From Gilvimarinus agarilyticus (GTDB lineage Bacteria; Pseudomonadota; Gammaproteobacteria; Pseudomonadales; Cellvibrionaceae): DNA of 64,000 nt. Of this stretch, positions 18,850 to 34,045 are shown one piece after another. The notes under the pieces were generated by a model. It made no database searches. It was not told where the DNA came from and saw only the letters and a list, made by a program, of their open reading frames with translations. Numbering within the stretch: the first letter of the stretch is position 1; each line of letters starts with the position of its first letter. The stretch is from contig NZ_JXCJ01000001.1 in assembly GCF_000832015.1 (NCBI RefSeq), positions 2,728,631-2,792,630 on the forward strand, given 5' to 3'. The translations under genes and the position numbers were made by a program.

Positions 18850-18862
18850 GGGCGCGTTATTC
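18837..18862. repeat. 11-bp perfect inverted repeat at the old guaA stop / yceI start
   Basis: GAATAACGCGC (18837-18847) and GCGCGTTATTC (18852-18862) with a 4-nt loop. It spans the ancestral guaA stop codon (TAA) and the presumed first codons of the yceI lipoprotein, so it was probably the guaA-yceI junction hairpin before insertion. Confidence 0.7.
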
Positions 18863-18868
18863 CCACTC
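18859..18868. repeat. attachment site distal to the integrase
   Basis: ATTCCCACTC. On the minus strand it reads GAGTGGGAATAA including the next two bases, i.e. the codons for Glu-Trp-Glu and stop that end GuaA. It is therefore a remnant of the original guaA 3' end. Confidence 0.88.
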
Positions 18869-19124
18869 TAACATTAATAACGAATAAAAATCCTTTTAAA
18901 TCAACAGTATAAAAAGCGCCACGAGACAAATACCATTGAATATACCATGTTTAAAAATTTTTAGGATTAAACCCTAAGGCTGAATTAGAGCGCCTTTCAC
19001 AACCGCTAGACGACGTGGGCTTATCCGGCGGCAGGGCGTTGCGAGGGGGCTGTGCCCCCCTTCCCTAGACGCTACCTTTGCCCTGCCCCCGGCGCCCATC
19101 GTCAGAGAGTTTGGAAATGGGCTC
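18869..19124. other. island end region without a gene, with a GC-rich structured patch
   Basis: AT-rich from 18869 to about 18975, then GC-rich. GGCAGGGC (19030-19037) and GCCCTGCC (19080-19087) are inverted and enclose a second hairpin, AGGGGGC with GCCCCCCT (19044-19061). It may act as the ATPase gene's terminator or as a site for a recombination protein. Confidence 0.45.
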
Positions 19125-21224
19125 TTAGTCACCTGCAAGGGTTCTCTCACACTCCAGAACAACATACTCTGGTACATTATCAAATTTATGTGGATTCAAT
19201 TGCATGACATATTCGTTCTCAATATGGAAGGTTTCATTAACAAATTTTTGTAGTACGCCGTCTTCCTTACCTTTAGGAATATGCATCTCTTTATAAACTC
19301 TGAAGAGTTGAAGCTTGTCATACCCTATAGTTGAATCAAAGAACCTTCTCTCCATTTCTTCTTTATCATTAAGGATGCTAAGCAGTTCATCGTAATCAAA
19401 TCCTGGAATAAATTCTTCTATTCTGGCCTTAGCTTTCTCAACTTCTTCAGGCAGCATATCTACATCGCCCGCATCTGTCTTTCTAATTGGGGTAGCCCGA
19501 CCGTGCAGGAGATTTGCAAGGTAATTATACTCCTCACCAAGGTCATTAAGGATCTCAAAATGTCGCCTAAGATATATGCATTTAATGACCTCATCCGACA
19601 AATCACGAACGTTCGTTTCGCATATTTGTGCAAATGTCTGTATATCACACTCGTTGATCTCAGCCTCAGAAACAACCCCCGACCTGGAAGACAAAAAACA
19701 AGCAGTTGGTTTGGAATGTTGGAACAACCTTTTTACGCTTCGGATAACATCAATAGCAGGCTCAATGTCGTGTGTCAGCATCAAAACTGTAGAATCGCGC
19801 AAACTTGCCTTCCCTCGAAAAAGCTCATTCAAAATTGCAAACTTTTTCGTCTTATCAAAGCTAGAGACAGGATCATCTAAAATTGCAAGATCAGGCTTTT
19901 CACTAAGAACCTGATGCATAAAAAGAACGAGAGCGAACGCATTCTTTTCACCGTAACTTAGGTGCTGGGAAGCAGCTTCTATGTGTTCATCGAAATCCTG
20001 ATGAACCAACTTCATCTTATAAGAATCAGCTTCAGCCTGGATTGTCACACTATATTTATAGCCAGCAGAACTCAGAAAATCATTAATACTTTTTTGGTTA
20101 TCTACGATAGATTTCTCTATCTGCCGCTTATGCTTATTTATCTTTCCCTTCAGTTCACCTACTCTATCTATTAGCTCCTGAAGTTTGCCATTAATTGGGT
20201 CTACAACTGATGTTGTTTCAGGAGAGTTAAGCTTTTCCAACAACCCCAGATCAACCTTCAGCTTTTCAATCTCATCCTCTATTTTTTCCACATCTCTTAA
20301 CGAGAAAAAAGAAATCGAGCGTAAGCCTTCTAGCTTTGATAGCAGCGTTTCAACGTCCCCACGGAGAGAAGCCAAGAAATTGATTTCCTCAGGGGACAGT
20401 TCAATTTTGGACTTAGTAACGGATTCTAGCTTTTCTCGACATGCCTGACCGAAGTATTTACCAAGCCTATCAATGATTACTTTGAGATTGTTTAGATGCT
20501 CTACAGCTTTAGAGTCATATTCTTTGGACACCTGCTTTGCAGTGTCTTTTTTCCCAGGCTCTTGAATGCTTGAAGCACAGTAAGGGCAATTATCTGACAA
20601 GTCCAAAAAGGCATTTCCTTTTGCCTGCCATGATATCCAACTCGCAGGTTGCTCACATTTTAGGAAGTCCTCGAATGGCTTTAATTCATCTGGAATGTTT
20701 TCAATTTTATTACCAGATCCAAAAGCTTTATATCCTTTACTCGATTTTGAGAGAGTGCCCGTCTTAGTTACCCCAAAAGCATCACGTAGTTCTTTCAGGT
20801 CGGAGATAGCACTTTCGAGTTCTTCGTTATTATCAAATGCGGACTTTATTCCAGAGAAAAGTTCTTCAATTTCCTGCATTGCGCCCAGAAAAGCATCGTT
20901 TTTAATAAAAATGTCAAAACTATTCTTGAGAACCTCGTCTCTTTGAAAAACAAACTGGGAGACATAAGTGTCATCAAAAACTAATACAGAACCTATATCT
21001 TCAACGCCTTGCACGGATGGCTCATGTTCGCCAGGAACACCTCGATACTTAAAAGGCTTTAGACCTTGTAACGACCCATCATTAGCTACCGAGGAGATAA
21101 TTGAACGTGCAATCGTGCTTTTTCCTAACCCATTTGGACCATACTTAATATTTAACACACCTTCAGCTATTTTTATTTCTGCGCTCTCGATGCTATTGCA
21201 GTTTTCTATTTTTATAGTTCGCAC
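19125..21224 (-). CDS. RecF/RloC-type AAA ATPase with zinc-hook-like CPYC, probable defence gene
   Basis: 699 residues. Walker A 'GPNGLGKST' is at 29-37. Long charged coiled-coil regions (about 115-150 and 225-385) flank 'CPYC' at 213-216, like a Rad50/RloC zinc hook. ABC signature 'LSYGE' is at 422-426, Walker B 'LAILDDPVSSFD' near 445-457, and H-loop 'LTHD' at 483-486. The C-terminal 200 residues are not recognised; R553, E557 and H574 could echo the Arg-Glu-His triad of PrrC/RloC anticodon nucleases, but the spacing differs and this is weak. It is a single AT-rich cargo gene at the island edge. DNA repair or general RecF-like roles are alternatives. Confidence 0.8.
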   Translation of the reverse strand: MRTIKIENCNSIESAEIKIAEGVLNIKYGPNGLGKSTIARSIISSVANDGSLQGLKPFKYRGVPGEHEPSVQGVEDIGSVLVFDDTYVSQFVFQRDEVLKNSFDIFIKNDAFLGAMQEIEELFSGIKSAFDNNEELESAISDLKELRDAFGVTKTGTLSKSSKGYKAFGSGNKIENIPDELKPFEDFLKCEQPASWISWQAKGNAFLDLSDNCPYCASSIQEPGKKDTAKQVSKEYDSKAVEHLNNLKVIIDRLGKYFGQACREKLESVTKSKIELSPEEINFLASLRGDVETLLSKLEGLRSISFFSLRDVEKIEDEIEKLKVDLGLLEKLNSPETTSVVDPINGKLQELIDRVGELKGKINKHKRQIEKSIVDNQKSINDFLSSAGYKYSVTIQAEADSYKMKLVHQDFDEHIEAASQHLSYGEKNAFALVLFMHQVLSEKPDLAILDDPVSSFDKTKKFAILNELFRGKASLRDSTVLMLTHDIEPAIDVIRSVKRLFQHSKPTACFLSSRSGVVSEAEINECDIQTFAQICETNVRDLSDEVIKCIYLRRHFEILNDLGEEYNYLANLLHGRATPIRKTDAGDVDMLPEEVEKAKARIEEFIPGFDYDELLSILNDKEEMERRFFDSTIGYDKLQLFRVYKEMHIPKGKEDGVLQKFVNETFHIENEYVMQLNPHKFDNVPEYVVLECERTLAGD

Positions 21225-21371
21225 AATAAAACCCCCTTCCCTGATTCAACCCAAATAACAAATTCCCGATTAGGTAGTTATACTATATTATTGAATTTTT
21301 CCTCGGCAGATGTTGCATTCCAGCGTAGCCTAAGAGTAAATTCATGTATAGAGATGAAAGGGCGAAGGTCG

Positions 21372-21566
21372 ATGAAAATCATTAAAAACAGCAACTTAAA
21401 CAAGCCCAGCAGCTCAGAACCATCCGTTTCAATAGACAAAGATGCCTTTCCTAGGCCTCTGTCGAGCGAGGAACTTACTGAGCTCCGGCGGGATATGACG
21501 GAGTCTTCAGCTTGGGCAAAGGCAGAACTGGCCCGCCGACGTAAAAATAAGGGAGAGCGATCATAG
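21372..21566 (+). CDS. small hypothetical island protein (orf64)
   Basis: 64 residues from an ATG at 21372 (MKIIKNSNLNKPSSSEPS) preceded by an AAGG-type site; a longer frame starts at 21291. It is hydrophilic with a basic C-terminus 'AKAELARRRKNKGERS'. It is convergent with traJ (5 bp between stops) and divergent from the ATPase gene. I do not recognise it. It could be a relaxosome accessory or a regulator. Confidence 0.5.
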   Translation: MKIIKNSNLNKPSSSEPSVSIDKDAFPRPLSSEELTELRRDMTESSAWAKAELARRRKNKGERS

Positions 21567-21571
21567 CCTTG

Positions 21572-21949
21572 TCATGGCTCAGACCTCGGCATAACAATCT
21601 TGGTCATGACCTTCCCCATTTCCTCCTGTGTCGCCTCAATCCTTCCGAGAACTGCAAGGATTGTTGACTGACCGAACTGGGCCGTGCGCACGTCATCAGT
21701 AAGCCATAGCTTCAATAGGCCCCCCAAGCGGCCAAGGTCGCCGTTGATCCGGGCCAGCTCCCGAACCTGCTCATAATCCACCACACCTGAGATGTGATAT
21801 CCCTGCCCGACCTCCCGCAGGTAACGTGCTGCACTCATACCGGCCCGCTTCGCTTGCGCTTCGATCTGTTCCTTTTCCTCGGGTAAGCAGTACACTTTAA
21901 TAGGTGTGCTGCTCTTCCTCGTTATTCGCTCTTTCTTATCGTTCATCAT
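21572..21949 (-). CDS. traJ: TraJ-like oriT-binding relaxosome protein
   Basis: 125 residues: 'PIKVYCLPEEKEQIEAQAKRAGMSAARYLREVG' is a ribbon-helix-helix type N-terminus, followed by 'LARINGDLGRLGGLLKLWLTDDVRT', the hallmark segment of IncP TraJ/MobC-like proteins. TraJ binds one arm of the oriT inverted repeat and recruits the TraI relaxase. Its ATG overlaps the preceding stop by 4 nt. Unlike IncP plasmids, its oriT lies about 3.3 kb away rather than directly upstream. Confidence 0.88.
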   Translation of the reverse strand: MMNDKKERITRKSSTPIKVYCLPEEKEQIEAQAKRAGMSAARYLREVGQGYHISGVVDYEQVRELARINGDLGRLGGLLKLWLTDDVRTAQFGQSTILAVLGRIEATQEEMGKVMTKIVMPRSEP

Positions 21950-22185
21950 CTTTTGCCTTGGTTCCTTGTCACCTGACGGATAGTGTCCAACGCCTGTTCG
22001 AAATCCTCCGGCGTCGCTCGGCCAGTTTCAGCCTGGTAGTAAAGGATCGTGAACATATTGGATACCGCCTCCGCGACGGGCGAAATCTGCCGGGCGGTTT
22101 CCTGGTCGATAAACTCCAGAGCAGCCAGCTCGGTCGCTGCCTGATGAATTGCTTGCTGAGCTTCGATATTATGTGTGGTTGTCAT
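21946..22185 (-). CDS. small hypothetical protein coupled to traJ
   Basis: 79 residues beginning MTTTHNIEAQQAIHQAATEL, predicted helical and acidic. A good site (GAGAGGTGA) precedes the ATG. The ATGA overlap with traJ implies a joint relaxosome or transfer role. It is found next to traJ in related mobile elements as far as I recall, but has no function I can name. Confidence 0.65.
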   Translation of the reverse strand: MTTTHNIEAQQAIHQAATELAALEFIDQETARQISPVAEAVSNMFTILYYQAETGRATPEDFEQALDTIRQVTRNQGKR

Positions 22186-22252
22186 GTGTCACCTCTCTGA
22201 CAGGTGGTATGTGGAAATGCGGGCGGTGCACCATCACCGGCCCGTGTGCTTT

Positions 22253-22519
22253 CTATAGGCCGGTATTGGAAAACCCGGCCACCTCTGAAAACGGGGTTTT
22301 CCCGGTTCCAGCCCCTGCGTCATTGCTGATGCGTATGCTGCTCGATGCCTCCACCCGGCCAGTAGGGTCCGGGCGATACACAAAGGCCGCAATCTCCGCT
22401 TCGGTGTCTTTCTCTTCCTCGGTCGATGGTTCGACAACCGGCACAAATTCGGCTTCTGTGCGGGGTTCCTGGTCTTTGTCGAGCATATCCAGGGCAGCCA
22501 TGAAATTACGTTTTTTCAT
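22253..22519 (-). CDS. small protein sharing short motifs with TrbL C-terminus
   Basis: 88 residues from MKKRNFMAALDML, with AAGGAA 8 nt upstream. The middle is acidic ('EPSTEEEKDTEAEIAAFVYR'). It ends 'GKTPFSEVAGFSNTGL', close to 'GDTPFAQAAGFSGAG' inside the adjacent TrbL. 'AEIAAFVYR' also recalls TrbL's terminal 'EEVASFVNR'. It may be a TrbL-derived or TrbL-interacting small protein in the trb operon. Confidence 0.6.
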   Translation of the reverse strand: MKKRNFMAALDMLDKDQEPRTEAEFVPVVEPSTEEEKDTEAEIAAFVYRPDPTGRVEASSSIRISNDAGAGTGKTPFSEVAGFSNTGL

Positions 22520-22531
22520 CGTCTTATTTCC

Positions 22532-24154
22532 TTACGTATCTTGCCGATCGCGGTTCACAAAGCTGGCAACCTCTTCATTACGTTCCTGCTGTCGTTCCTG
22601 GGCATACGAAACGTAGTCCCCGACGTCGAAGGTGTGCTTTTCCGGGTCGCGTGCTTGCCACTCAGCGTGTGATTGGCGGGCCTTGTCCTGGTCCTCGCTG
22701 GACAGAGCATCAAAGCCGCCCGTTTGGTTTACCCAGCCGCCGCCGTTGCCACCGCTCAAGCTATCGCTGTCGAACGATGCGGTATCACTCACCTGATCAG
22801 CGCTACCAGCATCGTTATCACTCTTTGGCTCCATGCTTTCACGAATCGAGGATGCCAGGCGTCCGCCGGCGGTCTGATTAGCCTTGTCTTGAAAACTTCC
22901 GGCCATCTTTGCCCCGACCCCTTTAGCAAGCTCGCCAGCCGTTCCGGCTGCTAGAGAAGCTACCCGACCAAACCCACCATTAGAGCTGGAACTACCCGCT
23001 CCGGAAAAACCTGCTGCCTGGGCAAATGGCGTATCACCCGTGCTCGCGTTATCGCTGCCAGTGGTGCTACCACCCCAGCTTTCACCGGTATCACTAGAGC
23101 TACCGCCGAAGCTCGGAATGTCTCCACCGGCCATACTGGATTGCGCCTTTTGAAAGGCTGCTTTTACAGCACTAGCTCCACCGGCCATATTAGTCGCCCC
23201 GGACATTGCAGCGCTTCCAAGCGCAGCACCACCCGATGCGACGGCTGCACCGGCACCGACAGCACCACCAATCAAGGCCCCTGCACTGAATGAACTACCA
23301 GCGCTCGCGGCACCACCACCGCCAGGGATCAAACCTGCAACCACGTTTGGTACGGAGTTAACGAGAATAACCATGACAAGGGACACAACGAAAATGACCA
23401 ACAATTCGTCCATTGGCGCACCTTCTGAAAGGCCGGAGTGATAACCATCGATGATAGAAACAGCGATCCCAACCAGCAGTGTCATTGTCATGATTTTGAG
23501 TGCTATACCGGCCACACTCCTGAAATAGTTGACGGCAATGTCAGAGGTCCAGCGCGAGCCACCGAAGCCCAAGACAAAGATTCCCGCGTAAGCAATAATC
23601 CATGCCGTAACTAGGGCAAGAAGAACGTTGGCCGCGACAATGGCCATGCATGCCAATATGGCAAGCGTGGTCAGGAAGATGGACAAGTTGTCCATAGGGC
23701 TAGTGATGCTATAGCTGCTCGCTGCCTTAGCGATAATATCAAACGCAATATCTATCGGCGTGGACGGATTCAACCCCCTTGGCAGGCCGGATGCTTCAGC
23801 CGCGATATTTCTCAACGAGTTGATAATATCCATTGCAAAGCCAGGCCCATTGATCAACAGCCACCAAAAGAACCCGGTAGTAATGGTGAAGCGGGTAAAC
23901 TCGGCGAAGAACTCGCCAATGTCGGCTTTGCGCAATGCCATCATGCCGAACGTCCAGACCATTGAGATAACAACCAGTGTCCAGAATAACCAGGACGCAT
24001 GATCAGTAATTGTTGTCGCCCAATTTGAGCTTTCGGTTAAAAAACGGTCCGAAACTTCATTCAACACGCCGCCTTTATCTATTTCGGCAAAGGCGGCTGG
24101 TGAAATGGAAGCAAAGGGCAGTACTGCCCCAAAGCGAAGAAGTACTGTTTTCAT
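22532..24154 (-). CDS. trbL: P-type conjugative transfer protein TrbL (VirB6-like)
   Basis: 540 residues: an N-terminal signal-like segment, five or more hydrophobic segments between about 50 and 280 (TrbL/VirB6 inner-membrane channel domain), then a long Gly/Ser/Ala-rich soluble tail. TrbL spans the inner membrane in the mating-pair apparatus. It starts 1 nt after the trbK stop. No other structural trb genes (B-I) are present in the island. Confidence 0.93.
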   Translation of the reverse strand: MKTVLLRFGAVLPFASISPAAFAEIDKGGVLNEVSDRFLTESSNWATTITDHASWLFWTLVVISMVWTFGMMALRKADIGEFFAEFTRFTITTGFFWWLLINGPGFAMDIINSLRNIAAEASGLPRGLNPSTPIDIAFDIIAKAASSYSITSPMDNLSIFLTTLAILACMAIVAANVLLALVTAWIIAYAGIFVLGFGGSRWTSDIAVNYFRSVAGIALKIMTMTLLVGIAVSIIDGYHSGLSEGAPMDELLVIFVVSLVMVILVNSVPNVVAGLIPGGGGAASAGSSFSAGALIGGAVGAGAAVASGGAALGSAAMSGATNMAGGASAVKAAFQKAQSSMAGGDIPSFGGSSSDTGESWGGSTTGSDNASTGDTPFAQAAGFSGAGSSSSNGGFGRVASLAAGTAGELAKGVGAKMAGSFQDKANQTAGGRLASSIRESMEPKSDNDAGSADQVSDTASFDSDSLSGGNGGGWVNQTGGFDALSSEDQDKARQSHAEWQARDPEKHTFDVGDYVSYAQERQQERNEEVASFVNRDRQDT

Positions 24155-24155
24155 A

Positions 24156-24338
24156 TCAGAACTCCTTGCTCTTAGAGCGATCCACCGGTTCTTTCAGGCT
24201 ATCGTAGATAGTCCCGTTCTGTTTTTCGCACTGCTCTTGCTGTTGGTTTGTTTTTTCGCAGTTTTCTTCCTTCTCACTACATCCCGCCATGAGGAACAAA
24301 GAAAGCAGGAGCGTCAGCATTTGAATCATGTATTTCAT
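24156..24338 (-). CDS. trbK: TrbK-like entry-exclusion lipoprotein
   Basis: 60 residues with lipoprotein signal 'LSLFLMAGC', small size and position between trbJ and trbL, as in IncP plasmids where TrbK blocks entry of related plasmids into the host. The C-terminus 'IYDSLKEPVDRSKSKEF' is nearly the same as TrbJ's 'LYEGLSEPVNRSHSKEY'. Confidence 0.8.
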   Translation of the reverse strand: MKYMIQMLTLLLSLFLMAGCSEKEENCEKTNQQQEQCEKQNGTIYDSLKEPVDRSKSKEF

Positions 24339-24340
24339 GC

Positions 24341-25120
24341 TTAGTACTCCTTGCTGTGAGAACGGTTGACTGGCTCTGACAGCCCCTCATAGAGCTTATC
24401 GCGTGAAGCCTGATACTGAGCTTCGCGGTCGGCTTCGGCCTGCATTTGCGTGCCGACGGCATTCTGCTGAGCAATCAGCAAGCTGCGGATTTGCAGGAGC
24501 TGGTTGGCCTGGTTGCTGGCGAGCTGGTTAGCGTACCCGATGGCGGCCAGTTGGCCATCCGCGCCCTGGGCGGCAGATTGCAAACGCTGGAGTTGTCGAG
24601 CGTCAGCCTGCAAGTTGTCTTGCTGCTGCTCAAGACCCTTAAACAGCGCGTCGTTGGCCTTCTTCTGCGATTCAGACGCCAGGCGGCGGTTCTCGGCCAT
24701 CGCGACCCGTTCGGCATCGCTGCACCCCGCCGATGAGAAGCACGGCGAGCTGCGGTAATAGGCCACGTCCTGGAACTTGCCCAGGTAGGCATCGAGGCTG
24801 CCAAGCTGATTTTGGTAATAGGCGAGTGTGTTGGTTGCCTGGTTCAGATCATTGATGGTGCGCTGCGCCTGGTCCCAAATATGGGCCGCCGGTGCCATCG
24901 TGTTTTGCAGTTGGTTTTCGTACTGCTGGAGTTGAGTTTGGTATTCCTGAATCTGCTTGAGCGTCTGCGCAACCGCTTCCATCGCGGTCATGATGTTCTG
25001 CGATAGGTTTGTGCCATCAACTACAGGAATACCGGCGTGGACAGGCTGCAAAGTGCAGGTCGTCATGGCGACGACCAGAGTAATTTTAGCGGCTAAATTT
25101 TTTCTTCTAACTTTTTGCAT
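24341..25120 (-). CDS. trbJ: P-type conjugative transfer protein TrbJ (VirB5-like)
   Basis: 259 residues with a signal peptide ending 'LQPVHAG', then a Gln-rich helical body ('MEAVAQTLKQIQEYQTQLQQYENQLQN'), a Cys pair ('SPCFSSAGC') and the typical TrbJ layout. VirB5-like proteins sit at the pilus tip or in the periplasm and contact the recipient. It is the first gene of the trbJ-K-L operon and lies directly downstream of the island's oriT. Confidence 0.92.
   Translation of the reverse strand: MQKVRRKNLAAKITLVVAMTTCTLQPVHAGIPVVDGTNLSQNIMTAMEAVAQTLKQIQEYQTQLQQYENQLQNTMAPAAHIWDQAQRTINDLNQATNTLAYYQNQLGSLDAYLGKFQDVAYYRSSPCFSSAGCSDAERVAMAENRRLASESQKKANDALFKGLEQQQDNLQADARQLQRLQSAAQGADGQLAAIGYANQLASNQANQLLQIRSLLIAQQNAVGTQMQAEADREAQYQASRDKLYEGLSEPVNRSHSKEY
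25082..25097. repeat. 16-bp sequence shared (inverted) with a palindrome at 29206
   Basis: AATTTTAGCGGCTAAA, inside the signal-peptide codons of trbJ, equals the reverse complement of the core of the perfect palindrome at 29206-29224. Confidence 0.5.
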
Positions 25121-25283
25121 TCGTTGATCTCCATTACCAATGAATGCTTTATCGTGCCTTTCAATGCATAACGTATAAGCTCAATAATTGGACATAAAAG
25201 TTGACATGGAGAAATTTAATCCAACAAATCCTACGGCGGCAGCCAATGGCCTCGCAGAGCAGGATTACCGTTGAGCGCCCCGG

Positions 25284-25385
25284 CGCGAATAAGGTAAGTG
25301 AAGAAGGAACCACCGACTTGTCGGTGGGCCTACTTCACCTATCCTGCCCGCCTTTCGGCGTTGTTTACGCCAAGGAAAGTGTTGC
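25284..25385 (+). other. oriT: IncP-type origin of transfer (oriT)
   Basis: The stretch matches the RP4/R751 oriT layout as I know it: GAATAAGG, then GTGAAGAAGG...CCTACTTCAC as the TraJ-binding inverted repeat (with an inner CCACCGAC/GTCGGTGG hairpin), then the nic core CACCTATCCTG^CCC, then GGCGTTG...GCCAAGGAAAGT. The nick falls between 25346 and 25347 on the plus strand. By RP4 polarity the oriV/rep side would enter the recipient first and traJ/trb last. Confidence 0.95.
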
Positions 25386-25801
25386 CGCGAAAATCTGTTT
25401 TTTAGTGCATACCATATAAAATCGCTTGAACACCTTCTTGCACGAACAGAAACAGAAGAAAACGCTAAATATCAGGCAATTACTACGCTAGAACGGGGGT
25501 ATACACAGCCAAAAAACACAGCAATACACAGCTTTACCAATTCAGGAGGAGTTGCGCCCCTCAAGTGTCAATGAAACGTGCGAGTGCTAGGAATGCATCC
25601 GATGTAGCACTCTGTATTCCAAGGACTTTTAAACATCCCAGACACTCTTGACGGCCTTTTCTTTGACAGTTTCAGATTGGTATCGGTTGGGTCATACGGT
25701 CAGGAAGGACCGCTATCAACACCCTGTGCGTGTCGAGCCGCTAGCGCCCAACTTCGGACAGCTTTTCGGGCACAGCGTCAGTGCGGATAGGAAATGTAGT
25801 G

Positions 25802-25837
25802 TTGTAGTATGTTGTACGGTGCTACTACATACTACAA
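25802..25837. repeat. 15-bp-arm inverted repeat
   Basis: TTGTAGTATGTTGTA (25802-25816) and TACTACATACTACAA (25823-25837) pair with one mismatch around CGGTGC. No T-run follows, so an operator or replication/partition protein site is more likely than a terminator. Confidence 0.7.
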
Positions 25838-26138
25838 ACCTCACACATTTGTAGCCTACTACCGCCTGAAGTGGCTATTTATCTTGATGTATGGAAAACG
25901 GCTTTCTGAGCCGCCCAGAGAGGCGCTTCAGGCATCACCCTTCGCCAACCCCTAGTCAGCCTCTGAACGACGCTCCTGGAGCTTATAAGGCGGCTTTGGT
26001 CGTCCTTCGGACGGATTGAACGCCATGGAGAAGGGATTGCTCCTGGCGAGCACACAAAATCGGCCTCCCTCTTGGCGTTAAAACATCGGCCGGAGGCCGA
26101 TAGATACTCAACCTCCAGCACCCAGCTGGAGGTTGCTG

Positions 26139-26168
26139 GATATCCTGAGATATCCTGAATATCCTGCC
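26139..26168. repeat. three tandem 10-bp repeats beside the iterons
   Basis: GATATCCTGA at 26139-26148 and 26149-26158, then ATATCCTGCC at 26159-26168. It lies 15 bp from the first iteron and next to an A-run, so it is probably part of oriV. Confidence 0.65.
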
Positions 26169-26183
26169 AAAACAGCAAAAAAT

Positions 26184-26267
26184 CGGGCGGGTGTGAGTCA
26201 CTACCGGGCGGGTGTGAGTCGCCATCGGGCGGGCGTGGGACGCTATCGGGCGGGTGTGAGGCGCTTT
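26184..26267. repeat. oriV: four 21-bp iterons (oriV)
   Basis: Four exact-period copies start at 26184, 26205, 26226 and 26247, each opening CGGGCGGG(T/C)GTG. IncQ plasmids use 20-bp iterons bound by RepC. The fourth copy and part of the third lie inside the 3' end of repC, encoding its last residues. Confidence 0.9.
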
Positions 26268-26998
26268 ATCCTATTCTCAGCATCTATCGTTATTCCAACT
26301 TCATGCAATTTTTCCGCATCTTCCCTAAGCCTGGAACGCCCATTTCGCATCTTCTTACTATTGATGTTTTCACCACAGACTGCGCGAATGAGAGTATCAA
26401 CATGCCACCCTCCGGCTGGGTCATTCTTGTGGGTCAATATGTGTCGAGCGACCGCCTGACTAATCCCGTGCCGCAAGCGAGCAATGGGTGCGGGATCGTA
26501 GTACAGGCTAAGGTCATGCTCCAATAGCATGACCAAGGCGATACCAAGCCGAACTCTCCACAGATTTCGCTCTCCTCCCGTCAAGGGATCAGGGCGTGTC
26601 ATAGGTGAAGGAATAACATGATCGATCAAGCCGCCGATTATCGGAAAATCGAACTGTGGTGTTTCAATGGTTACAGTTGCTGCTCGCAGCTCTGCCAGCA
26701 GCTTCTCAAGCTGGGAGGAACTATACCGGCTATCTGACAACGTTTTCCGCACTTTGGCAGGGTCTACCAAAAGCTCTACACCACCATCTGACACATCGCG
26801 TCGACGTTCGGCACAGTGCAAAATAGCCTCAACAACATCTGCGTGCCGCTGGCCAAGCCTTCCCTTTATGCGACAGCGGCCAAAGGATGTTTCCATCCAG
26901 TTGGCCTCCAGCAGGCTCGGGCGCTGGCTGGCCTGGTAAAGCATCACTCGTGCCTGTGCGCTGGTACTAGTTGGAGTGACCTTGTTACCAGTTGTCAT
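26243..26998 (-). CDS. repC: RepC-like replication initiator
   Basis: 251 residues, with winged-helix-like segments ('SSQLEKLLAELRAATVTIETP' and 'GRSRLREDAEKLHEVGITID') and the family block 'HDLSLYYDPAPIARLRHGISQAVARHILTHK'. It resembles RepC of IncQ-like replicons and related islands, which bind iterons and melt oriV. It overlaps repA by 14 nt, and its 3' end overlaps the iterons, allowing autoregulation. No RepB primase is seen. Confidence 0.85.
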   Translation of the reverse strand: MTTGNKVTPTSTSAQARVMLYQASQRPSLLEANWMETSFGRCRIKGRLGQRHADVVEAILHCAERRRDVSDGGVELLVDPAKVRKTLSDSRYSSSQLEKLLAELRAATVTIETPQFDFPIIGGLIDHVIPSPMTRPDPLTGGERNLWRVRLGIALVMLLEHDLSLYYDPAPIARLRHGISQAVARHILTHKNDPAGGWHVDTLIRAVCGENINSKKMRNGRSRLREDAEKLHEVGITIDAENRIKRLTPAR

Positions 26999-27848
26999 CA
27001 GCGCCTTCCATAACAGCTTTCGATTTCTTGAACGGCAATACTCCTTTGGCCTTACGCTGCTTCTCCAGCACGGCAGGTTTCAGCACACCGCCTTCGTGAC
27101 GTCTGAACCAACGCTCTGCGAAAGGAGAGCCATAATTCGCCTTGCTCACGCCATAGCGGACGAAGTACCCACGCTGACTATCATCAACACCCCATTCCTC
27201 AGCCTCGGTTTGCGTCATGCCAGACAGATACGATTGCCAGCGAATGTTATCGACCAGAACAGACGACCCACGGCTGGCCTGTTGCTGGTCACCCGCACCA
27301 ATCATGGCGGCGCTCTTACTGGCATGGTGCAAAAACACGATAGAGCACCCCGTATCGGCGGCAATGGCCTCCATACGTCCGATCACTTGCGCCATTGGGC
27401 CGCTGGCGTTTTCATCTTCAATATGGAAACGGCGTAAGGTGTCCAGGATCATCAGGCGACGGCCTTCAGCCGCTCGCTTAAGGCCATCGAACCAATCGAG
27501 ACACATGATGTTGGGGCACCTTCCTATCAGCGGCTCAATCAGCAAGCCTTCAGCAACGGCTTGCCGCTTCTCGGCAGTGAGATGCGCCCCAAGCGCATGT
27601 AATCGGTGATGGATAGCAACAGGAGGATCTTCTGCGGGAAGATAGATAACTGGACCAACAGGAAATTCTCCGACTTCCAGCAAGTCCGGGCCTCCAGCGA
27701 TCTGAGTGGCAAACTGTAAGGCCAGCATGGATTTTCCGGCACCACCTGGTGAAACCAAGGCCCCTACCGTACCGGAAACCATGTTAGGTAAAACATAATC
27801 AAGAGGCGGCGGCGTTTGCGAAAAGGCCGCCATAAGATCAAGGGCCAT
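26985..27848 (-). CDS. repA: RepA-like hexameric replicative helicase
   Basis: 287 residues, RecA-fold. Walker A 'SPGGAGKSMLALQFA' is near residue 33, 'VIYLPAEDPP' follows, Walker B 'RLMILDTLRRFH' and 'IVFLHHASK' come later. This is the RSF1010 RepA family, which unwinds DNA at oriV. It lies 4 bp after the alpA-like stop and overlaps repC, so alpA-repA-repC form one operon. Confidence 0.92.
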   Translation of the reverse strand: MALDLMAAFSQTPPPLDYVLPNMVSGTVGALVSPGGAGKSMLALQFATQIAGGPDLLEVGEFPVGPVIYLPAEDPPVAIHHRLHALGAHLTAEKRQAVAEGLLIEPLIGRCPNIMCLDWFDGLKRAAEGRRLMILDTLRRFHIEDENASGPMAQVIGRMEAIAADTGCSIVFLHHASKSAAMIGAGDQQQASRGSSVLVDNIRWQSYLSGMTQTEAEEWGVDDSQRGYFVRYGVSKANYGSPFAERWFRRHEGGVLKPAVLEKQRKAKGVLPFKKSKAVMEGADDNW

Positions 27849-27852
27849 ACTG

Positions 27853-28083
27853 TTAGGCCCCTATGGTGTTGCCAGGTCGAGTAGCCTGGATTCCAGACGC
27901 TTTACGCGTCTCTATCCATTCTTCGACTTCCGATAAATCCCAAGCAACATTTCTGCTTGTAAGCGCTATGCGCTTCGGAAATTCCCCACGCTGCTCTAGG
28001 TTATAAATTGTGCGCGTTGAAAGTGGAATCATCTCCAGGAGTTGTTTCCTGTTGATGAGAACTTTATTTGCCATTGTTTGCAT
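27853..28083 (-). CDS. AlpA-family HTH regulator / excisionase
   Basis: 76 residues from the ATG at 28083 (MQTMANKVLINRKQLLEM), chosen because GGAGG lies 8 nt upstream. 'LLEMIPLSTRTIYNLEQRGEFPKRIAL' plus 'VAWDLSEVEEWIETR' is the MerR-like wing-helix of AlpA/phage excisionases. Such proteins promote excision or control integrase expression. It heads the repA-repC operon. Confidence 0.88.
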   Translation of the reverse strand: MQTMANKVLINRKQLLEMIPLSTRTIYNLEQRGEFPKRIALTSRNVAWDLSEVEEWIETRKASGIQATRPGNTIGA

Positions 28084-28169
28084 GCTTGAACCTCCATTTA
28101 CCTGTTGAGGCTTCGTCGTGCCAAGCAATGCAACTTGATTAAGCTTTATTTTTGGACTATAAGGTTGTT

Positions 28170-29204
28170 ATGGATACGGAATACCAAGCTAGGCTAGACC
28201 TAGGACGAGACTACATAGCCATCCTACCAGGCTGCGCCCAGCCTGTTTCTCTTGCTATCGCCAAATTTAGAACGCGCTGGGGACCTTACTCTGCCTTCTC
28301 TCGGCGCTACCCCATTCTTCGCCTGATAAAAGAACTGATCGATCCTGCCATAGCTGAGTACATGGATTCCCTCCCAAACAGCTATAAAAACCATGTTGCG
28401 GGTATTGGCTCAGGGGTTGGATTTAGCGAAATCATCCGGCTAATAGGGCTGGAAGCAATGGTGCGCATGCAGCGCCAACTGCTACGCCAGTTCATAAGGA
28501 CAAGTGATGAGCAAACCCAAAGAGATCAGTGCTTCGTCGCAACCATTGAATCGTTAATCGAATTAACTTGGGATTGCGCCTGTAAGCGTCCGAAGAAATC
28601 AACAGCGACCAAAGGCGTCAACCTGAACGTACAACGAAAACATAATTTTTGTGAATTCTGTGGAAACCTTACGGAGTACTCAAAATTCATGCTCGCAGTC
28701 GAGCAGAAACAAACAAATGAGGTTGAACTAATAGACCACAAAAAACTAGAACTTAGCCACAATTACTGCAAAGAGCATCGCCCCAAACTTGCCAATGACG
28801 AGTGGAATCCAAGTTACAAACAAGCAAAGCGCTCCCTCGCACAATTCAACATCGAACTTTCCAGGTTAACTCATCAATCTGCACATCGCTCTAAGCCTCA
28901 TGCTATGTCAGGAGACAAACTGATCGATGACTATTTCTTCTTATTCATGTTGAATTTAACATTACAGCCAGCAGACGTAGCGGAGCTTCGCAATCTGGCT
29001 CGAAAGATGGTCGACTCTAAGCTCTCAGACAATAAGAAGAAAATGCTGGTTCTTCAGCATTATGGCTACACTCAATCTCAAATTGGTAAAAAGCTACTAA
29101 GCAGAAAACAACAACCAATGACACCTCAAGCAGTATCCAAAGCATTAGCAGCCATTCGCAAAGATTTTTTGCTTCCTGCTAACAGGCCAGAAAAATCCCA
29201 ATAG
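28170..29204 (+). CDS. unrecognised island protein with Zn-binding Cys/His and C-terminal HTH
   Basis: 344 residues from ATG 28170 (AAGG just upstream; the longer frame begins at a TTG). Basic N-terminal half. A likely zinc site is formed by C161-x2-C164 and C200-x2-H203, and possibly C136/C138. The C-terminal part has a sigma/LuxR-like helix-turn-helix 'LQHYGYTQSQIGKKLLSRKQQPMTPQAVSKALAAIRKDF'. It is divergent from alpA-repA-repC, with under 90 bp between starts. It could be an island regulator or replication accessory factor. I cannot name the family. Confidence 0.7.
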   Translation: MDTEYQARLDLGRDYIAILPGCAQPVSLAIAKFRTRWGPYSAFSRRYPILRLIKELIDPAIAEYMDSLPNSYKNHVAGIGSGVGFSEIIRLIGLEAMVRMQRQLLRQFIRTSDEQTQRDQCFVATIESLIELTWDCACKRPKKSTATKGVNLNVQRKHNFCEFCGNLTEYSKFMLAVEQKQTNEVELIDHKKLELSHNYCKEHRPKLANDEWNPSYKQAKRSLAQFNIELSRLTHQSAHRSKPHAMSGDKLIDDYFFLFMLNLTLQPADVAELRNLARKMVDSKLSDNKKKMLVLQHYGYTQSQIGKKLLSRKQQPMTPQAVSKALAAIRKDFLLPANRPEKSQ

Positions 29205-29205
29205 A

Positions 29206-29244
29206 AATTTTAGCCGCTAAAATTCACTGACTAGAATTTTAGCC
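29206..29244. repeat. perfect palindrome plus extra half-site
   Basis: AATTTTAGCCGCTAAAATT (29206-29224) and a further AATTTTAGCC at 29235-29244, between two gene 3' ends. A 16-bp copy occurs at 25082-25097. Confidence 0.65.
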
Positions 29245-29275
29245 AATTTGATCTGCGCGAGAAGGGAGGAAGTAA

Positions 29276-29569
29276 TCAGTGCATTTCATAGTCCGCCAGT
29301 TTCGCGAGGGTTATGCACTCTTGACTTGTAACGAACCCTGTTTCTTCCGCCTCCGCAGGCAACATATATAGAACGTCGAGCGGCAGCTCTTTCCCCGCAA
29401 TTCTCAATTCCGCCTTAAGTCTTAACAAAGCATCACCAGGCGGACCAACAATCAAAATATCGAAATCGCTGCCTACACCGAGCAATGAAGAGCCGAACAT
29501 GTAGGATTCGAACTCACGCAGGGACTCGCAAGATTTTAGTAAGTGTCTTGCCACCCCACATGCCTTCAT
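29276..29569 (-). CDS. minimal pol-beta-type nucleotidyltransferase
   Basis: 97 residues from the ATG at 29569, whose A is shared with the preceding TGA (TGATG), so re-initiation is likely. 'GSSLLGVGSDFDILIVG' gives the G-S...D-x-D motif (S27/S28, D35, D37) and 'LPLDVLYM' supplies the third acid (D65). The catalytic triad is complete. Size is like MNT/DNA-pol-beta-like antitoxins, far below CD-NTases of CBASS. It is the third gene of the HNH operon; it could modify a partner protein or RNA. Confidence 0.8.
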   Translation of the reverse strand: MKACGVARHLLKSCESLREFESYMFGSSLLGVGSDFDILIVGPPGDALLRLKAELRIAGKELPLDVLYMLPAEAEETGFVTSQECITLAKLADYEMH

Positions 29570-30210
29570 CAACGGTTCCGTAACAGTTTCTTTAACTCTT
29601 CCCATTTCATCACCTCACAGCCAAGATCCTTTCCTGCTTCAAGGGCATTCTGAGTGGGATTGCCGTTCGGGTTGATATTCCAAGCAATATCGATGGGGCC
29701 AAACCGATCCCAGAAGGTGCGAATAGCGTCAGCTGTCGGCTCATACTCCATGATCATGCCCACTCGAAATGTACGCCCGTTGGCAAGCGTCATCGTGAAA
29801 ACTCGGTCAAACTCTCTATCAAGATTTGTAATAGATCTCATTTGACTAATGAGCCGGTAGGAGAAAAAGAAATCCTTATGGGAAGCACTCCTTACATTGC
29901 CGCTGGAAAGGGCGGAACCAAGTGTACCGGCACTTCCCCAGCCTATTGCGTTTCTTTCTAAATATTCGATCGCTCCACCTTCCCAAACGCATTCCTTTCG
30001 ATATCCGCAAAGGAATTCCATATCGGGGAAATCCTCATGGTATTGTTCCGCTAAGTCAGCGTTGATCGTGTAAGCAGCCGAGATAACTGCCACAATGTCT
30101 GGCTGGTGAGGCAGCGTAATTTTGATAGCATCACCGTGAATATGCTGTGCTGACGCACTCTTCTGAGCTTCCAATATATATTGAAGCGCATAGTTTACCT
30201 GCCAATTCAT
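29569..30210 (-). CDS. unrecognised middle protein of the HNH-NTase operon
   Basis: 213 residues from ATG 30210 (MNWQVNYALQYILEAQ), overlapping the HNH stop by 4 nt. Alpha/beta, soluble, with conspicuous 'CGYRKECVWEGGAIEYLE', 'GWGSAGTLGSAL' and a C-terminal 'DIAWNINPNGNPTQNALEAG' before 'EVMKWEELKKLL'. No known motif identified: no HEPN Rx4-6H, no SAVED, no clear PD-(D/E)xK. The tight overlaps on both sides indicate a functional unit with its neighbours. Confidence 0.8.
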   Translation of the reverse strand: MNWQVNYALQYILEAQKSASAQHIHGDAIKITLPHQPDIVAVISAAYTINADLAEQYHEDFPDMEFLCGYRKECVWEGGAIEYLERNAIGWGSAGTLGSALSSGNVRSASHKDFFFSYRLISQMRSITNLDREFDRVFTMTLANGRTFRVGMIMEYEPTADAIRTFWDRFGPIDIAWNINPNGNPTQNALEAGKDLGCEVMKWEELKKLLRNR

Positions 30211-30899
30211 GAGAAGATTCCATCCATTTCTTCTGGGTAGCGGATAGCACTGCCTGCTACGCCACAAACATGTCGCTCTGAGAGACCTCGAACATGCTCT
30301 TGGTATTGTGCGAATGTCTGTAGCTCAGCGTCCGTCATGTGCTGTTGGTTTGCCATGATAATGGCCTGGATACGGAAATGGTTAGGCAGAATGACACCTC
30401 GCATCCTCTGCATCCACGTTCTAGCTGCTTCAGATTCTGGATCATATTCAAAGCCTGATCCATCAGAGGGCGCGAACTCCCTCCATACTGCTTTATTTTC
30501 GGCCATGGCGGCGACCACGGCGCACCTAACTTGGCTACGCTCATCGTATGTACGAATTCCTTGTCTGTGTGCCAAAGCAGCAAGATGATTGTTTTTCCAA
30601 TCTAGCAACGTTCCTCGGCTATATCCGCCGGGATCTTTGTCGACTATCGTATGGCATGTGGGACACAATAGAATAAGATTTTCAAAAGAGTCGACCTCAA
30701 GTCCTCCAGTGGGCCTTTCTTCATGGCGCGGCCCCGTTTCTCCATGTGGAATCACATGAGCCATTTCAGCTATATGCTTGTCCCCGCCCATTTCAGCAGG
30801 AAAAAGAGGCTGAAGGCAGTCGGGGCGTTGACAGTGACCTGCCGCCTCCGAAAACAGCCGAAGTTTCGTTTTTGTAGGTATTTGTTTACGCTCTGCCAT
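30207..30899 (-). CDS. HNH endonuclease
   Basis: 230 residues from ATG 30899 (MAERKQIPTKTKLRL). The N-terminal HNH domain has C23-x4-C28, 'AEMAHVIPHGETGPR' (H48), 'SFENLILLC' (N74) and 'CPTCH' (C79, C82, H83), then 'YSRGTLLDWKNNHLAAL'. This HNH subtype is the one fused to SAVED in Cap5, but residues 110-230 here look helical and are not recognisably SAVED. It is the first gene of the three-gene operon and lies beside the integrase in a typical cargo slot. Confidence 0.88.
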   Translation of the reverse strand: MAERKQIPTKTKLRLFSEAAGHCQRPDCLQPLFPAEMGGDKHIAEMAHVIPHGETGPRHEERPTGGLEVDSFENLILLCPTCHTIVDKDPGGYSRGTLLDWKNNHLAALAHRQGIRTYDERSQVRCAVVAAMAENKAVWREFAPSDGSGFEYDPESEAARTWMQRMRGVILPNHFRIQAIIMANQQHMTDAELQTFAQYQEHVRGLSERHVCGVAGSAIRYPEEMDGIFS

Positions 30900-30959
30900 G
30901 GTTACAAGCCTATAATCTGATGCGGATACAATTAATCCATAGATAAAATACAAGTAAAG

Positions 30960-32159
30960 TTATCGGGTCTTTCCAGCAGTCCATTCATCAATCATATCAG
31001 CCCAGTCCTGCAACATAGCTGTACGCTGATCACGATACTCGGCTTTGTTATATATCGCCCTTACACCTTTTTGCTCATGTGCCAGGCATTTCTCTATCCA
31101 GTCGGTGTTGTAACCGGCTTCATGAAGCAAGGTACTGGCTGTTCGTCTCAGGTCGTGCGGGCCGAATTTAGCAAGCGATTGCCCCTCTTTCTGAGCCAGT
31201 TTGTATGTCATCGTCATCACCCGGTTCAGCGTAGCACTGCTCATGGGGACGTCAGAATCGTAGCGTGACGGCAGAACATACTCCGATCCTCCGGAGAACG
31301 TCTTCAAAGCAATGAAGATGTCCATGGCCTGCCTGGATAGAAACACCAGGTGAGGGTTTCGCCGTTTCATCCGTTCCTTGGGAATCGTCCAGAGCGCTTC
31401 GCTGAAGTTGATCTCACTCCAGGTGGCATTCGTCAGCTCGCTTTTTCGCACCATCGTCAACAACAGCAGCTTGACCGCTGCCCGGATCGATGGCGATGTA
31501 CCAATACGGCCCATGTACTGGTACATGATCCTGATTTCTTCGGGTGTCAGGGTTCGATCTCTCGGCTCAAATCTGGCTATGCTCGCTGGCCTCACCAGGT
31601 CTGCCGGGTTTTCGACCTTCTGACCCCGCTCAGTCGCCCAGCGGTATACCTGGAGTACAATCTCACGCGCATGAACCGCCGTAGCAGGCGCACCGCGCTC
31701 TACGATGGCGTCGGTTAGTGCTCGCAAGTCCTCGTGGGTGATTTCGGTCAGCTTCTGATTGCCAAATTTCGTTTCTAGCTCTCTCGTATAAACCGAGCGG
31801 CGCATATCACGGGTAGAGTCGGCCATCTGGTAGCCACGTAGCCACTTTTCCGCCCAGGCACCAAAGGTTTCAGCCCCTTTAACACGCGCCTTGTCTCGAG
31901 CCTTCTCCTTCGCTGGCGACTTTCCATCGGCGACCATCCGCTTGGCTTCACCAAGTCGCTCACGGGCTTCTGCCAGCGTGATCCCCCCAACGCCATAGCG
32001 GCCAAAGGTGATTGTCTCTTGCCTGCCATTGATCGAGTAGTTGTAACGGAATGAGATAGAACCGGCAGGAGTGACAGCCACATAGAGGCCATCACGGTCA
32101 TTCACCTTGTAGAGTTTATCCCTCGGCTTGAGGTTGCGCAGCTTGGTATCGGTCAGCAA
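30960..32159 (-). CDS. int: site-specific tyrosine integrase (P4-like, DUF4102 N-terminus)
   Basis: 399 residues. N-terminal DUF4102 arm-binding domain (about 1-95), SAM-like core-binding domain (95-185) and catalytic domain with R238 ('MVRKSEL'), H335-D-L-R338, H361 ('LAHE') and Y370. The frame begins at TTG 32159, with AAGGA about 9 nt upstream and no better start. It should recombine the guaA 3' site with the island circle. Conserved GuaA C-terminal codons explain the target choice. Confidence 0.95.
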   Translation of the reverse strand: MLTDTKLRNLKPRDKLYKVNDRDGLYVAVTPAGSISFRYNYSINGRQETITFGRYGVGGITLAEARERLGEAKRMVADGKSPAKEKARDKARVKGAETFGAWAEKWLRGYQMADSTRDMRRSVYTRELETKFGNQKLTEITHEDLRALTDAIVERGAPATAVHAREIVLQVYRWATERGQKVENPADLVRPASIARFEPRDRTLTPEEIRIMYQYMGRIGTSPSIRAAVKLLLLTMVRKSELTNATWSEINFSEALWTIPKERMKRRNPHLVFLSRQAMDIFIALKTFSGGSEYVLPSRYDSDVPMSSATLNRVMTMTYKLAQKEGQSLAKFGPHDLRRTASTLLHEAGYNTDWIEKCLAHEQKGVRAIYNKAEYRDQRTAMLQDWADMIDEWTAGKTR

Positions 32160-32182
32160 GAGTCTTATCCTTCTTCGATTCC

Positions 32183-32339
32183 AATACCATGCTGGAAGAT
32201 CACCCGAAAATCAGGCAATAAAATCAATAAAAACAGATAGTTAAATAATTTCGATACCATGAACACACAGGATCAAGCAGCATGGTATCGGCTATCACTC
32301 ATGGCATCATGTCTCGATAATACCACCTTGGATACCACG
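32183..32339. repeat. repeated ATACCA motifs upstream of the integrase
   Basis: AATACCATG (32183-32191), CGATACCATG (32252-32261), its exact inverse CATGGTATCG (32281-32290), then ATACCAC copies near 32319 and 32331-32339. Position between att and int suggests integrase or AlpA arm-type binding sites. Confidence 0.6.
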
Positions 32340-32398
32340 CTCAAGCGGTGCTTCCCGCTGCCATCAGTTGCCAAATACTGCCAGACATAAAAACAAAA

Positions 32399-32420
32399 AA
32401 GCCCATGAAAACATGGGCTT
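32399..32420 (-). terminator. terminator supplied by the island to guaA
   Basis: AAGCCCATG/CATGGGCTT (9 bp, loop AAAA); the minus strand continues into U6. It lies inside the island 48 bp after the guaA stop, and so ends the guaA transcript before int. Confidence 0.85.
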
Positions 32421-32467
32421 AAGTGTCATTTAATGCCAGTTAGTACCAGCTAATGCCTAACGTGTGA

Positions 32468-34045
32468 TCATTCCCACTCAATAGTCGCCGGCGGCTTGCT
32501 CGATACATCGTAGGTTACCCGAGACACACCCGAGATCTCGTTGATGATGCGATTGGACACTTTCTCCAACAACTCGTAAGGCAAGTGCGCCCAACGGGCA
32601 GTCATAAAGTCGATGGTTTCTACGGCGCGCAGGGCAATTACCCACTCGTAGCGGCGGCCGTCGCCAACCACACCCACCGATTTAACCGGCAGAAATACCG
32701 CAAACGCCTGGCTGGTTTTGTGGTACCAATCGGCATTGTGCAGCTCCTGAATAAAAATCGCATCGGCTTCACGCAAAATATCGGCGTACTCTTTTTTCAC
32801 TTCACCCAGAATACGCACCCCAAGGCCCGGCCCCGGGAATGGGTGGCGATACACCATATCGTACGGCAAGCCCAGCTCTAAGCCGATGGCTCGCACTTCA
32901 TCTTTAAACAGCTCACGTAAAGGCTCTACCAGCTCCAGCGCCATGTCATCGGGCAAACCGCCCACATTGTGGTGCGATTTAATAACGTGGGCTTTACCGG
33001 TTTTGGCCGCCGCCGATTCAATTACATCGGGGTAGATAGTACCTTGGGCCAACCACTTAACATCGCGGATTTTGGTGGCCTCTTCATCAAACACTTCGAT
33101 AAAGGTGTTGCCGATAATTTTGCGTTTTTTCTCAGGGTCATTTTCACCGCCTAAGCGCGTTAAAAATAACTCTTCACGGTCAGCGCGAATCACTTTAACG
33201 CCCATGTTTTTCGCAAACATGTCCATTACCTGATCGCCTTCGGCTTTGCGCAGCAAACCGTTATCGACAAACACACAGGTTAATTGATCGCCGATCGCCT
33301 TGTGCAACAAAGCCGCCACAACCGAAGAGTCCACGCCACCAGACAAACCCAGCAGCACTTTATCGGTACCCACTTGTTCGCGAATTTTAACCAGAGCATC
33401 GTCGACGATATTAGAAGGTGTCCAAAGTGCGTCGCAGCCGCACAGCTTTAACACAAAGTGCTCAAAAATGCGTTTGCCCTGCAGGGTATGAGTAACCTCT
33501 GGGTGAAACTGCAACCCGTAAAAATCTTTTTCGTCACAGTACATGCCAGCAATGGGGCACGACGGCGTCGAGGCCATCACTTTAAAGCCCTCGGGCAGCG
33601 ATATAACTTTGTCACCGTGACTCATCCACACATCGAGCAAAGCGTTACCGTCGGCATCCACATGATCTTTAATGTCGTCAATCAAGGGGCCGTTGTTGTC
33701 AATTTTTACCTGAGCGTACCCAAACTCCTGAATCGCCGACCCCTGTACCGAGCCACCTAACTGCTCCGCCATGGTTTGCATGCCGTAGCAAATACCCAGC
33801 ACCGGCACGCCCAACGTAAAGACCACCTCCGGTGCCCGCGGCGAGTTAGCCACAGTAACCGACTCCGGACCACCGGCCAAAATAATACCGCTGGGGTCAA
33901 ACTCGCGAATTTCTTCTTCGCTCATGTCGTAGGCGCGGATAATGGAGTAAACCCCCACCTCACGCACACGGCGAGCAATCAACTGGGTATATTGAGAGCC
34001 AAAATCGAGAATAAGAATACGCTGAGCGTGAATATCCTGAGTCAT
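32468..34045 (-). CDS. guaA: GMP synthase (glutamine-hydrolysing)
   Basis: 525 residues. Class I amidotransferase with nucleophile in 'VLGICYGMQ' and '[11 protein letters not shown]', ATP-pyrophosphatase with PP-loop '[13 protein letters not shown]', and the C-terminal dimerisation domain ending 'TIEWE'. Converts XMP to GMP. Follows guaB with a hairpin between them. The island is inserted at its stop codon without loss of protein sequence. Confidence 0.98.
32470..32479. repeat. attachment site at the guaA/integrase side
   Basis: ATTCCCACTC, the second copy of the 10-bp core. It overlaps the last codons of guaA (Glu-Trp-Glu-stop), so the gene stays intact after integration, with TGA instead of the ancestral TAA stop. 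Confidence 0.88.

Follow-up and report, generated by a model that had tools for sequence, protein, structure and literature searches.

The matched tails of TrbJ and TrbK

The DNA analysed here, a stretch of 64,000 nucleotides from Gilvimarinus agarilyticus (contig NZ_JXCJ01000001.1; hereafter the window), carries a 13.6-kb island of the GIsul2 kind inserted at guaA (18861-32479). At the core of the island lie, all on the minus strand, an origin of transfer (oriT) of the incompatibility group P (IncP) type (25248..25365), trbJ for a VirB5-like pilus-tip protein (24341..25120), trbK for a putative entry-exclusion lipoprotein of 60 amino acids (24156..24338), trbL for a VirB6-like inner-membrane channel protein (22532..24154) and traJ for an oriT-binding relaxosome protein (21572..21949). 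The original prediction, made from the letters and open reading frames of the window, had named each of these, and profile matches bear it out. Rfam traJ-II (RF01760, IncP oriT/traJ leader) matches 25248-25349 on the minus strand with 97.9 bits (E 1.1e-18), and the sequence TATCCTG/CCC places nic at 25346/25347. NCBIfam equivalog models recognise TraJ (203 bits) and TrbJ (396 bits, cut-off 286), and TrbL matches Pfam TrbL/VirB6 (E 1.5e-35) and NCBIfam TrbL_P (249 bits). Also as predicted, there is no relaxase, coupling protein, TrbB, TrbE or other trb gene among the open reading frames of the window. TrbK is too divergent for the NCBIfam TrbK/Eex models, no exclusion-family model being among its NCBIfam matches, and a tblastn search with it against plasmids gave no match. 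Because no family model recognises it, the assignment rests on its position between trbJ and trbL, its lipobox (LMAGC) and a tail shared with TrbJ; it is, like other entry-exclusion lipoproteins, a small lipoprotein encoded between VirB5 and VirB6 genes.

TrbK ends in a copy of the C-terminus of the neighbouring TrbJ. In the window, the TrbJ tail LYEGLSEPVNRSHSKEY (24344..24394, minus strand), which we propose to be an exclusion code, and the TrbK tail IYDSLKEPVDRSKSKEF (24159..24209, minus strand) give a score of 57, compared with a mean of 16.6 and a maximum of 42 in 100,000 shuffles of mature TrbK. The corresponding pairs, TrbJ first, are LFDMGEPTDRSENKGF and LWDMGEPTDRSKNKGF in M37H, MRTWTFRPSPADNY and MRQWEFKPSPKDDY in GIsul2, NWLEL and NWLEL in pMATVIM-7, and YRASPARTW and FKPSPKREW in R751. 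Over 64 distinct pairs, cognate tails score 54.3 against 24.8 +/- 1.9 when permuted, the highest of 20,000 permutations reaching 32.4, and segments of TrbJ outside the tail score 15-17. The tail class of TrbJ equals that of TrbK in 101/102 pairs, the odd one out having a shortened TrbK; the class rules, however, were drawn up with the tails already in view, and more weight attaches to the permutation and shuffle scores. A tree built from TrbJ bodies alone, excluding the tails, shows 17 changes of tail class, TrbK switching along with TrbJ in about 6.8/7, 4/4, 2/2 and 6/6 independent pairs for the four classes; these four tests overlap, and the two with enough pairs give p values of 0.016 and 0.031. 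Identical codons are found at 50.5% of matched residues, with 44.8% expected, and the M37H pair has 13 identical residues with only 4 identical codons. Codon identity being this close to expectation, the match is kept mainly at the protein level and not by recent copying.

Conjugative systems show the match as well. It is seen in Ti plasmids (RGGQTMEPRW and RGGQEMKPRW) and in plasmids of Legionella and P. fragi. In some Tn4371-like integrative and conjugative elements the tails match (RRFLGDGTPYTPQ and KRFYGDGETPYTPP) with eex 7.5 kb from trbJ: likeness of EexN to the TrbJ tail is clear at 3/9 such loci (z 7-11), moderate at 3/9 (z ~4) and weak or absent at 3/9. At the Tn4371-like loci L172 and L174-L178, EexN is encoded about 7.5 kb upstream of trbJ and in part of these loci has the same tail type as TrbJ; a small open reading frame directly after trbJ in Tn4371-like loci does not match the TrbJ tail. 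The tail rule also led to an unannotated lipoprotein of 46 amino acids, encoded between trbJ and trbL of a gonococcal conjugative plasmid, with a tail matching that of TrbJ (DILKHPYRRGQ and DVLKRPYKRKE); in Neisseria gonorrhoeae WHO_W plasmid 2 (about 3200-3440 of locus L137) this lipoprotein is likely a missed TrbK. The TrbJ/TrbK tail match, a feature read from sequence comparison, is the new element of this work: full-text searches, which did not cover Haase 1996, Lessl 1991, Lyras 1994 and Garcillan-Barcia 2008, gave no earlier report of it, and because these older exclusion papers lay outside the search a prior mention is possible.

Satellites, conjugative relatives and the movable cassette

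A TrbJ scan over one genome per species gave 263 relatives, and the best 80 of the 263, together with the window and annotated loci, made up the locus set. In this set 75 satellite loci from many genera have matches to trbJ, trbK and trbL and to none of trbB, trbE, trbF, trbG or trbI, and 15 loci are conjugative. The satellite trio occurs on islands and on small plasmids, including small MOBP plasmids such as pMATVIM-7. The oriT profile matches in 73/75 satellite loci, so that the joint retention of oriT and trbJKL, for which the original prediction proposed a survey, is seen well beyond the window. The case that it named as refuting, close relatives whose full trb sets would mark a deletion remnant, did not arise: these loci retain trbJ, trbK and trbL without the rest. 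The TraI relaxase is present in 43/75 satellite loci and absent from 32/75, some of the latter being short contigs. The same gene order at guaA, with different cargo, is found in E. coli 81EVA, M37H, 203740 and the GIsul2 copy of E. coli 6409, and the backbone likeness to GIsul2 that had been supposed is thereby upheld. Purifying selection acts on trbJ, with dN/dS of about 0.07-0.19 between the window and six relatives. In E. coli 81EVA (L001:14543-15331) trbJ has an internal stop, and trbK and trbL are intact. In a Methylophaga frappieri plasmid (L132) the place of trbL after trbK is taken by a gene annotated as cysZ, which is either a piece of trbL under the wrong name or a sign that the operon is interrupted. 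On viral contigs there are four TrbJ loci, at which the lipobox rule detected no TrbK.

Tail classes are distributed unevenly between satellites and conjugative elements. DRSKSKEY tails occur in 37 satellites and PSxxDxY tails in 18, neither in any conjugative locus, and NWLEL tails in 20 satellites and 2 conjugative loci, both of Thauera sp. 2A1. Tails ending in W are found in no satellite and in 22 conjugative loci, with 3 more of unclear context; in other words, the W tail is present in 0/75 satellites versus 22/24 of the conjugative relatives sampled. A conjugative IncP plasmid of Delftia has its own W-type pair and, in addition, an orphan TrbK between traI and traG, with the satellite-type tail NPKNWLELIDKNT. 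Judged by its sequence, such an orphan would be the expected look of a helper answering these satellites, or Thauera-type plasmids. The orphan locus (L140:4220-4495; Delftia acidovorans plasmid NZ_CP065667) has a tail of the NWLEL type, and a search match in a comparable position in Acidovorax sp. JS42 (H164) is probably an orphan TrbK too.

The tail seems to change hands together with its neighbours. Between the window and M37H the DNA of the trbJ body is 0.93-0.95 identical, that of the trbJ tail, trbK and trbL 0.55-0.69, and that of ptaRNA1 0.94; between the window and 81EVA the pattern is reversed. TrbL distance tracks tail class and hardly the TrbJ body (0.53 vs 0.10 at body distance <0.08). 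Taken together, the drop in identity and the dependence of TrbL on tail class indicate that tail, TrbK and TrbL move as one cassette, as would be expected if TrbL were what the tail engages. The candidate determinant is not TrbL alone but the TrbJ tail that TrbK copies and that moves with TrbL.

Island boundaries, maintenance genes and cargo

The original prediction was confined to the transfer genes; the integrase, AlpA, RepA and RepC, the iterons, ptaRNA1 with its toxin-like open reading frame and the flanking copies of GAGTGGGA are additions to it. The attachment core GAGTGGGA lies at the 3' end of guaA (attL, 32472..32479, minus strand), where it is identical to that of GIsul2 (PMC9376610), and again at the opposite end of the island (predicted attR, 18861..18868, minus strand), which together delimit about 13.6 kb; the window holds 5 copies, with 1.2 expected by chance. 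Reading from guaA (32468-34045, minus strand), the order is integrase, HNH-like and small cargo, a 350-amino-acid protein, AlpA, RepA, RepC, iterons and oriT, followed by trbJ, trbK, trbL, an 88-amino-acid open reading frame, the ptaRNA1 toxin and antitoxin, traJ and an ATPase.

The following genes are on the minus strand unless stated. The tyrosine integrase (30960..32159; Pfam Phage_integrase E 4.9e-24, with Arm-DNA-bind_3) adjoins guaA, as it does in the E. coli islands. The cargo region after it (28152..30953) comprises a defence-like HNH-like endonuclease (30207-30953), two small open reading frames and the 350-amino-acid protein, encoded on the plus strand and unassigned to a family. Next come an AlpA-type regulator, likely the excisionase (27853..28128; Pfam Phage_AlpA E 7.6e-14), and a RepA helicase (26985..27848; Pfam AAA_25 E 6.5e-29), annotated in relatives as 'helicase RepA family'. 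The RepC-like initiator adjoining RepA (26243..26998) carries an IncQ-type RepC annotation in the GIsul2 copy of E. coli 6409, and four 21-nucleotide iterons on the plus strand (26182..26264), resembling a vegetative origin (oriV), overlap the 3' end of repC. Beyond the transfer genes, the 88-amino-acid open reading frame 3' of trbL (22253..22519) has two short TrbL-like stretches (AEIAAFV.RP and TPFSEVAGF), seen by eye only. The same open reading frame in L004, L006, L007 and L008 repeats two short TrbL stretches as well (EVAAFV.RP and TPFAEAAG), and its product may be another mimic, this time of TrbL; the open reading frames 3' of trbL at L002:16707-16904 and L003:16704-16901 resemble the C-terminal part of the window TrbL, which is apparently split there. 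The PtaRNA1 antisense RNA (22179..22251, plus strand; Rfam RF01811, 66.1 bits, cut-off 47) lies over a toxin-like open reading frame of the ptaRNA1 family (21946..22185), so called from its translation and from the same naming in E. coli relatives. It is followed by traJ, which the M37H island does not have. The last cargo gene encodes an AAA_13 ATPase, the candidate defence protein PDC-S06 (19125..21224; PADLOC E 3.3e-298, full length). In sister islands the slots of the defence-like genes hold different cargo.

Proposed pore re-coding, its alternatives and known systems

It seems to us somewhat better than an even proposition, judging from the gene content and the tails, that we are dealing with an integrative mobilisable element that has no relaxase and re-codes the pore of an IncP helper, with the TrbJ tail as exclusion code. 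The integrase and AlpA would excise the island, as is known for GIsul2, and RepA and RepC with the iterons probably maintain the circle. A co-resident IncP-type helper would provide relaxase, coupling protein, ATPases and core, its TraI nicking the island oriT together with the island TraJ. The island TrbJ and TrbL might then replace the pilus-tip and inner-membrane channel subunits of the helper. The last ~15 residues of TrbJ, where the sequence pattern lies, would serve for recognition. As a lipoprotein of the recipient envelope, TrbK would exclude by presenting the copied tail as a decoy that occupies or jams the target, most probably TrbL, that the tail of an incoming TrbJ has to engage. 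Island TrbK would accordingly shut out pores of its own code, and since the island tail differs in type from those of W-tailed IncP plasmids, the re-coded pore should escape the TrbK of helper-bearing recipients.

It is tempting to extend this scheme, and we hold the extension to be about evenly balanced: exclusion lipoproteins of VirB-type (MPF_T) systems may recognise self by a copied VirB5 tail, satellites may swap tail, TrbK and TrbL together for other tail types that pass helper exclusion, and some helpers may answer with an orphan, satellite-tailed TrbK. Published work is compatible with such a code. VirB5 sits on VirB6 and forms the pilus tip (PMC12624023). The C-terminus of TrbK is essential and has no known donor partner (PMC8923210), and in 2024 the exclusion targets of IncP, IncW and IncN were still described as unknown (PMC11493245). 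For RP4, either TrbJ or TrbK is enough by itself to protect a recipient (PMC11045733), as a shared tail would predict.

Of the alternatives, the one that survives best, though we think it unlikely, is that the shared tail is a docking or sorting signal to a common partner in the same cell (TrbL or another trb protein) and that exclusion specificity resides elsewhere. The joint movement of tail class and TrbL would suit such a signal, as would the requirement for pKPC_UVA01 TrbK in donors too (PMC8923210). Against it, the same TrbK is dispensable for transfer, acts in the recipient and needs its C-terminus (PMC8923210), and eex still matches at 7.5 kb from trbJ. Somewhat less likely again is that island TrbJ, TrbL and TrbK serve mainly to poison or exclude IncP plasmids and not to aid transfer of the island. 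This could be argued from the defence-like cargo and from the block of RP4 action by TrbJ or TrbK alone in recipients (PMC11045733), but oriT retention in 73/75 loci fits transfer, exclusion does not need TrbL and, under the tail rule, a differently tailed TrbK should not exclude W-tailed helpers. That the island descends by deletion from an IncP-like integrative conjugative element and keeps trbJKL as functionless leftovers is very improbable: the genes are plainly of IncP descent and the 81EVA trbJ has its internal stop, yet the same trio is strictly kept in 75 loci, on islands as well as small plasmids and across many genera, trbJ evolves under purifying selection (dN/dS 0.07-0.19), and tail and TrbK remain matched through repeated switches; we rejected it on these grounds. 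We likewise rejected, as hardly credible, functionless gene conversion or recent duplication between the adjoining ends of trbJ and trbK, since despite that adjacency and a slight excess of identical codons (50.5% vs 44.8%) the synonymous positions are near random (4 of 13 codons in M37H) and the match persists where eex is distant.

Several observations weigh against a re-coded pore with the TrbJ tail as its code. NWLEL is found on two near-identical conjugative loci of one Thauera strain, so the split between satellites and conjugative elements is not absolute; it agrees in 5/6 independent pairs (p 0.06), in a genome sample that was ranked by likeness to a satellite-rich alignment and leans to satellites, so that it may have passed over rare conjugative plasmids whose tails are of the DRSKSKEY class. 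The tail rule is supported weakly by R388 (IncW), where 58/1000 shuffles are equally good, and moderately by R46 (IncN), with 12/1000, and at several EexN loci there is no match to the upstream gene. That TrbL is exchanged along with the tail may reflect no more than linkage between adjacent genes. The mature window TrbK begins C-S-E, compared with C-D in the TrbK of RP4 and R751, and its membrane may therefore differ from that of RP4 TrbK. The AlphaFold model of TrbJ is helical and of low confidence (pLDDT, the predicted local distance difference test, 51); a search of PDB sequences with the TrbJ profile gave nothing relevant. Finally, TrbL and TrbJ each occur at a single place in the whole host genome, so that no resident IncP-type helper was found.

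The matched tails point to a candidate donor determinant of ~15 residues, one accessible to deletion and exchange experiments in laboratory E. coli, and a tail code would explain why RP4 TrbJ alone protects recipients. Exclusion groups would become predictable from sequence, and unannotated exclusion genes could be found, as in the gonococcal example. The idea of pore-remodelling IncP satellites, put forward in 2017, also gains from the matched tails a concrete footing in sequence that spans many genera.

That idea has a history. Guedon et al. 2017 noted that GIsul2 encodes TrbJ, TrbK and TrbL and no relaxase, proposed that it probably reshapes the helper pore to allow retrotransfer into IncP-bearing cells, and extended the proposal to a relaxase-bearing 'IncP island' (PMC5704250). 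The pore-remodelling satellite of the original prediction thus stands as the best reading of the island but is a known hypothesis, and a role for trbJKL in guaA islands, which the prediction took to be unexplained, had already been proposed. In the literature we found no demonstration of mobilisation or exclusion for any GIsul2 relative; integrase-driven excision and integration of GIsul2 have been shown, and AlpA raised excision (PMC9376610). GIsul2 (Harmer 2017; Zhang 2022, PMC9376610) shares with the window the insertion at GAGTGGGA in the guaA 3' end, int-AlpA-RepA-RepC, the IncP oriT, trbJ-K-L, the ptaRNA1 toxin and the lack of a relaxase. The window island, with its integrase beside guaA, GAGTGGGA at both ends, RepA/RepC, AlpA and relaxase-less trbJKL, is thus a guaA element of the GIsul2 type. 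It differs in having traJ, in cargo (AAA/PDC-S06 and HNH-like genes, against ars and sul2) and in tail class (DRSKSKEF, against PSPKDDY). The Burkholderia glumae IncP island and MOBP plasmids of the pMATVIM-7 type resemble the window in oriT, traJ and trbJ-K-L without other trb genes, and the MOBP mobilisable plasmids examined have the ptaRNA1 toxin as well; unlike the window island, IncP islands and these plasmids own a TraI relaxase.

SGI1 is likewise a relaxase-less guest with replacement mating-pore genes, among them a VirB6-like TraG whose replacement evades exclusion (PMC5389848), and it provides the experimental precedent for such remodelling; the window island is SGI1-like in combining helper-pore homologues and a helper-family oriT with the absence of relaxase and ATPases. 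It does not belong to the SGI1 family proper, which has insertion at trmE, traNHG pore genes and an IncC-type oriT in place of the guaA site, trbJKL and IncP-type oriT of the window; SGI1 uses an F-type pore and an IncC helper, its genes are unrelated to those of the window, and it is not known to have an exclusion gene (PMC11493245). The TrbK/Eex proteins of RP4, R751, R46, R388 and pTi are, like that of the window, small exclusion proteins encoded between VirB5- and VirB6-like genes, and their tails copy the VirB5 tail (weakly in R388), but these tails are W-ending or of other types, unlike the tail of the window.

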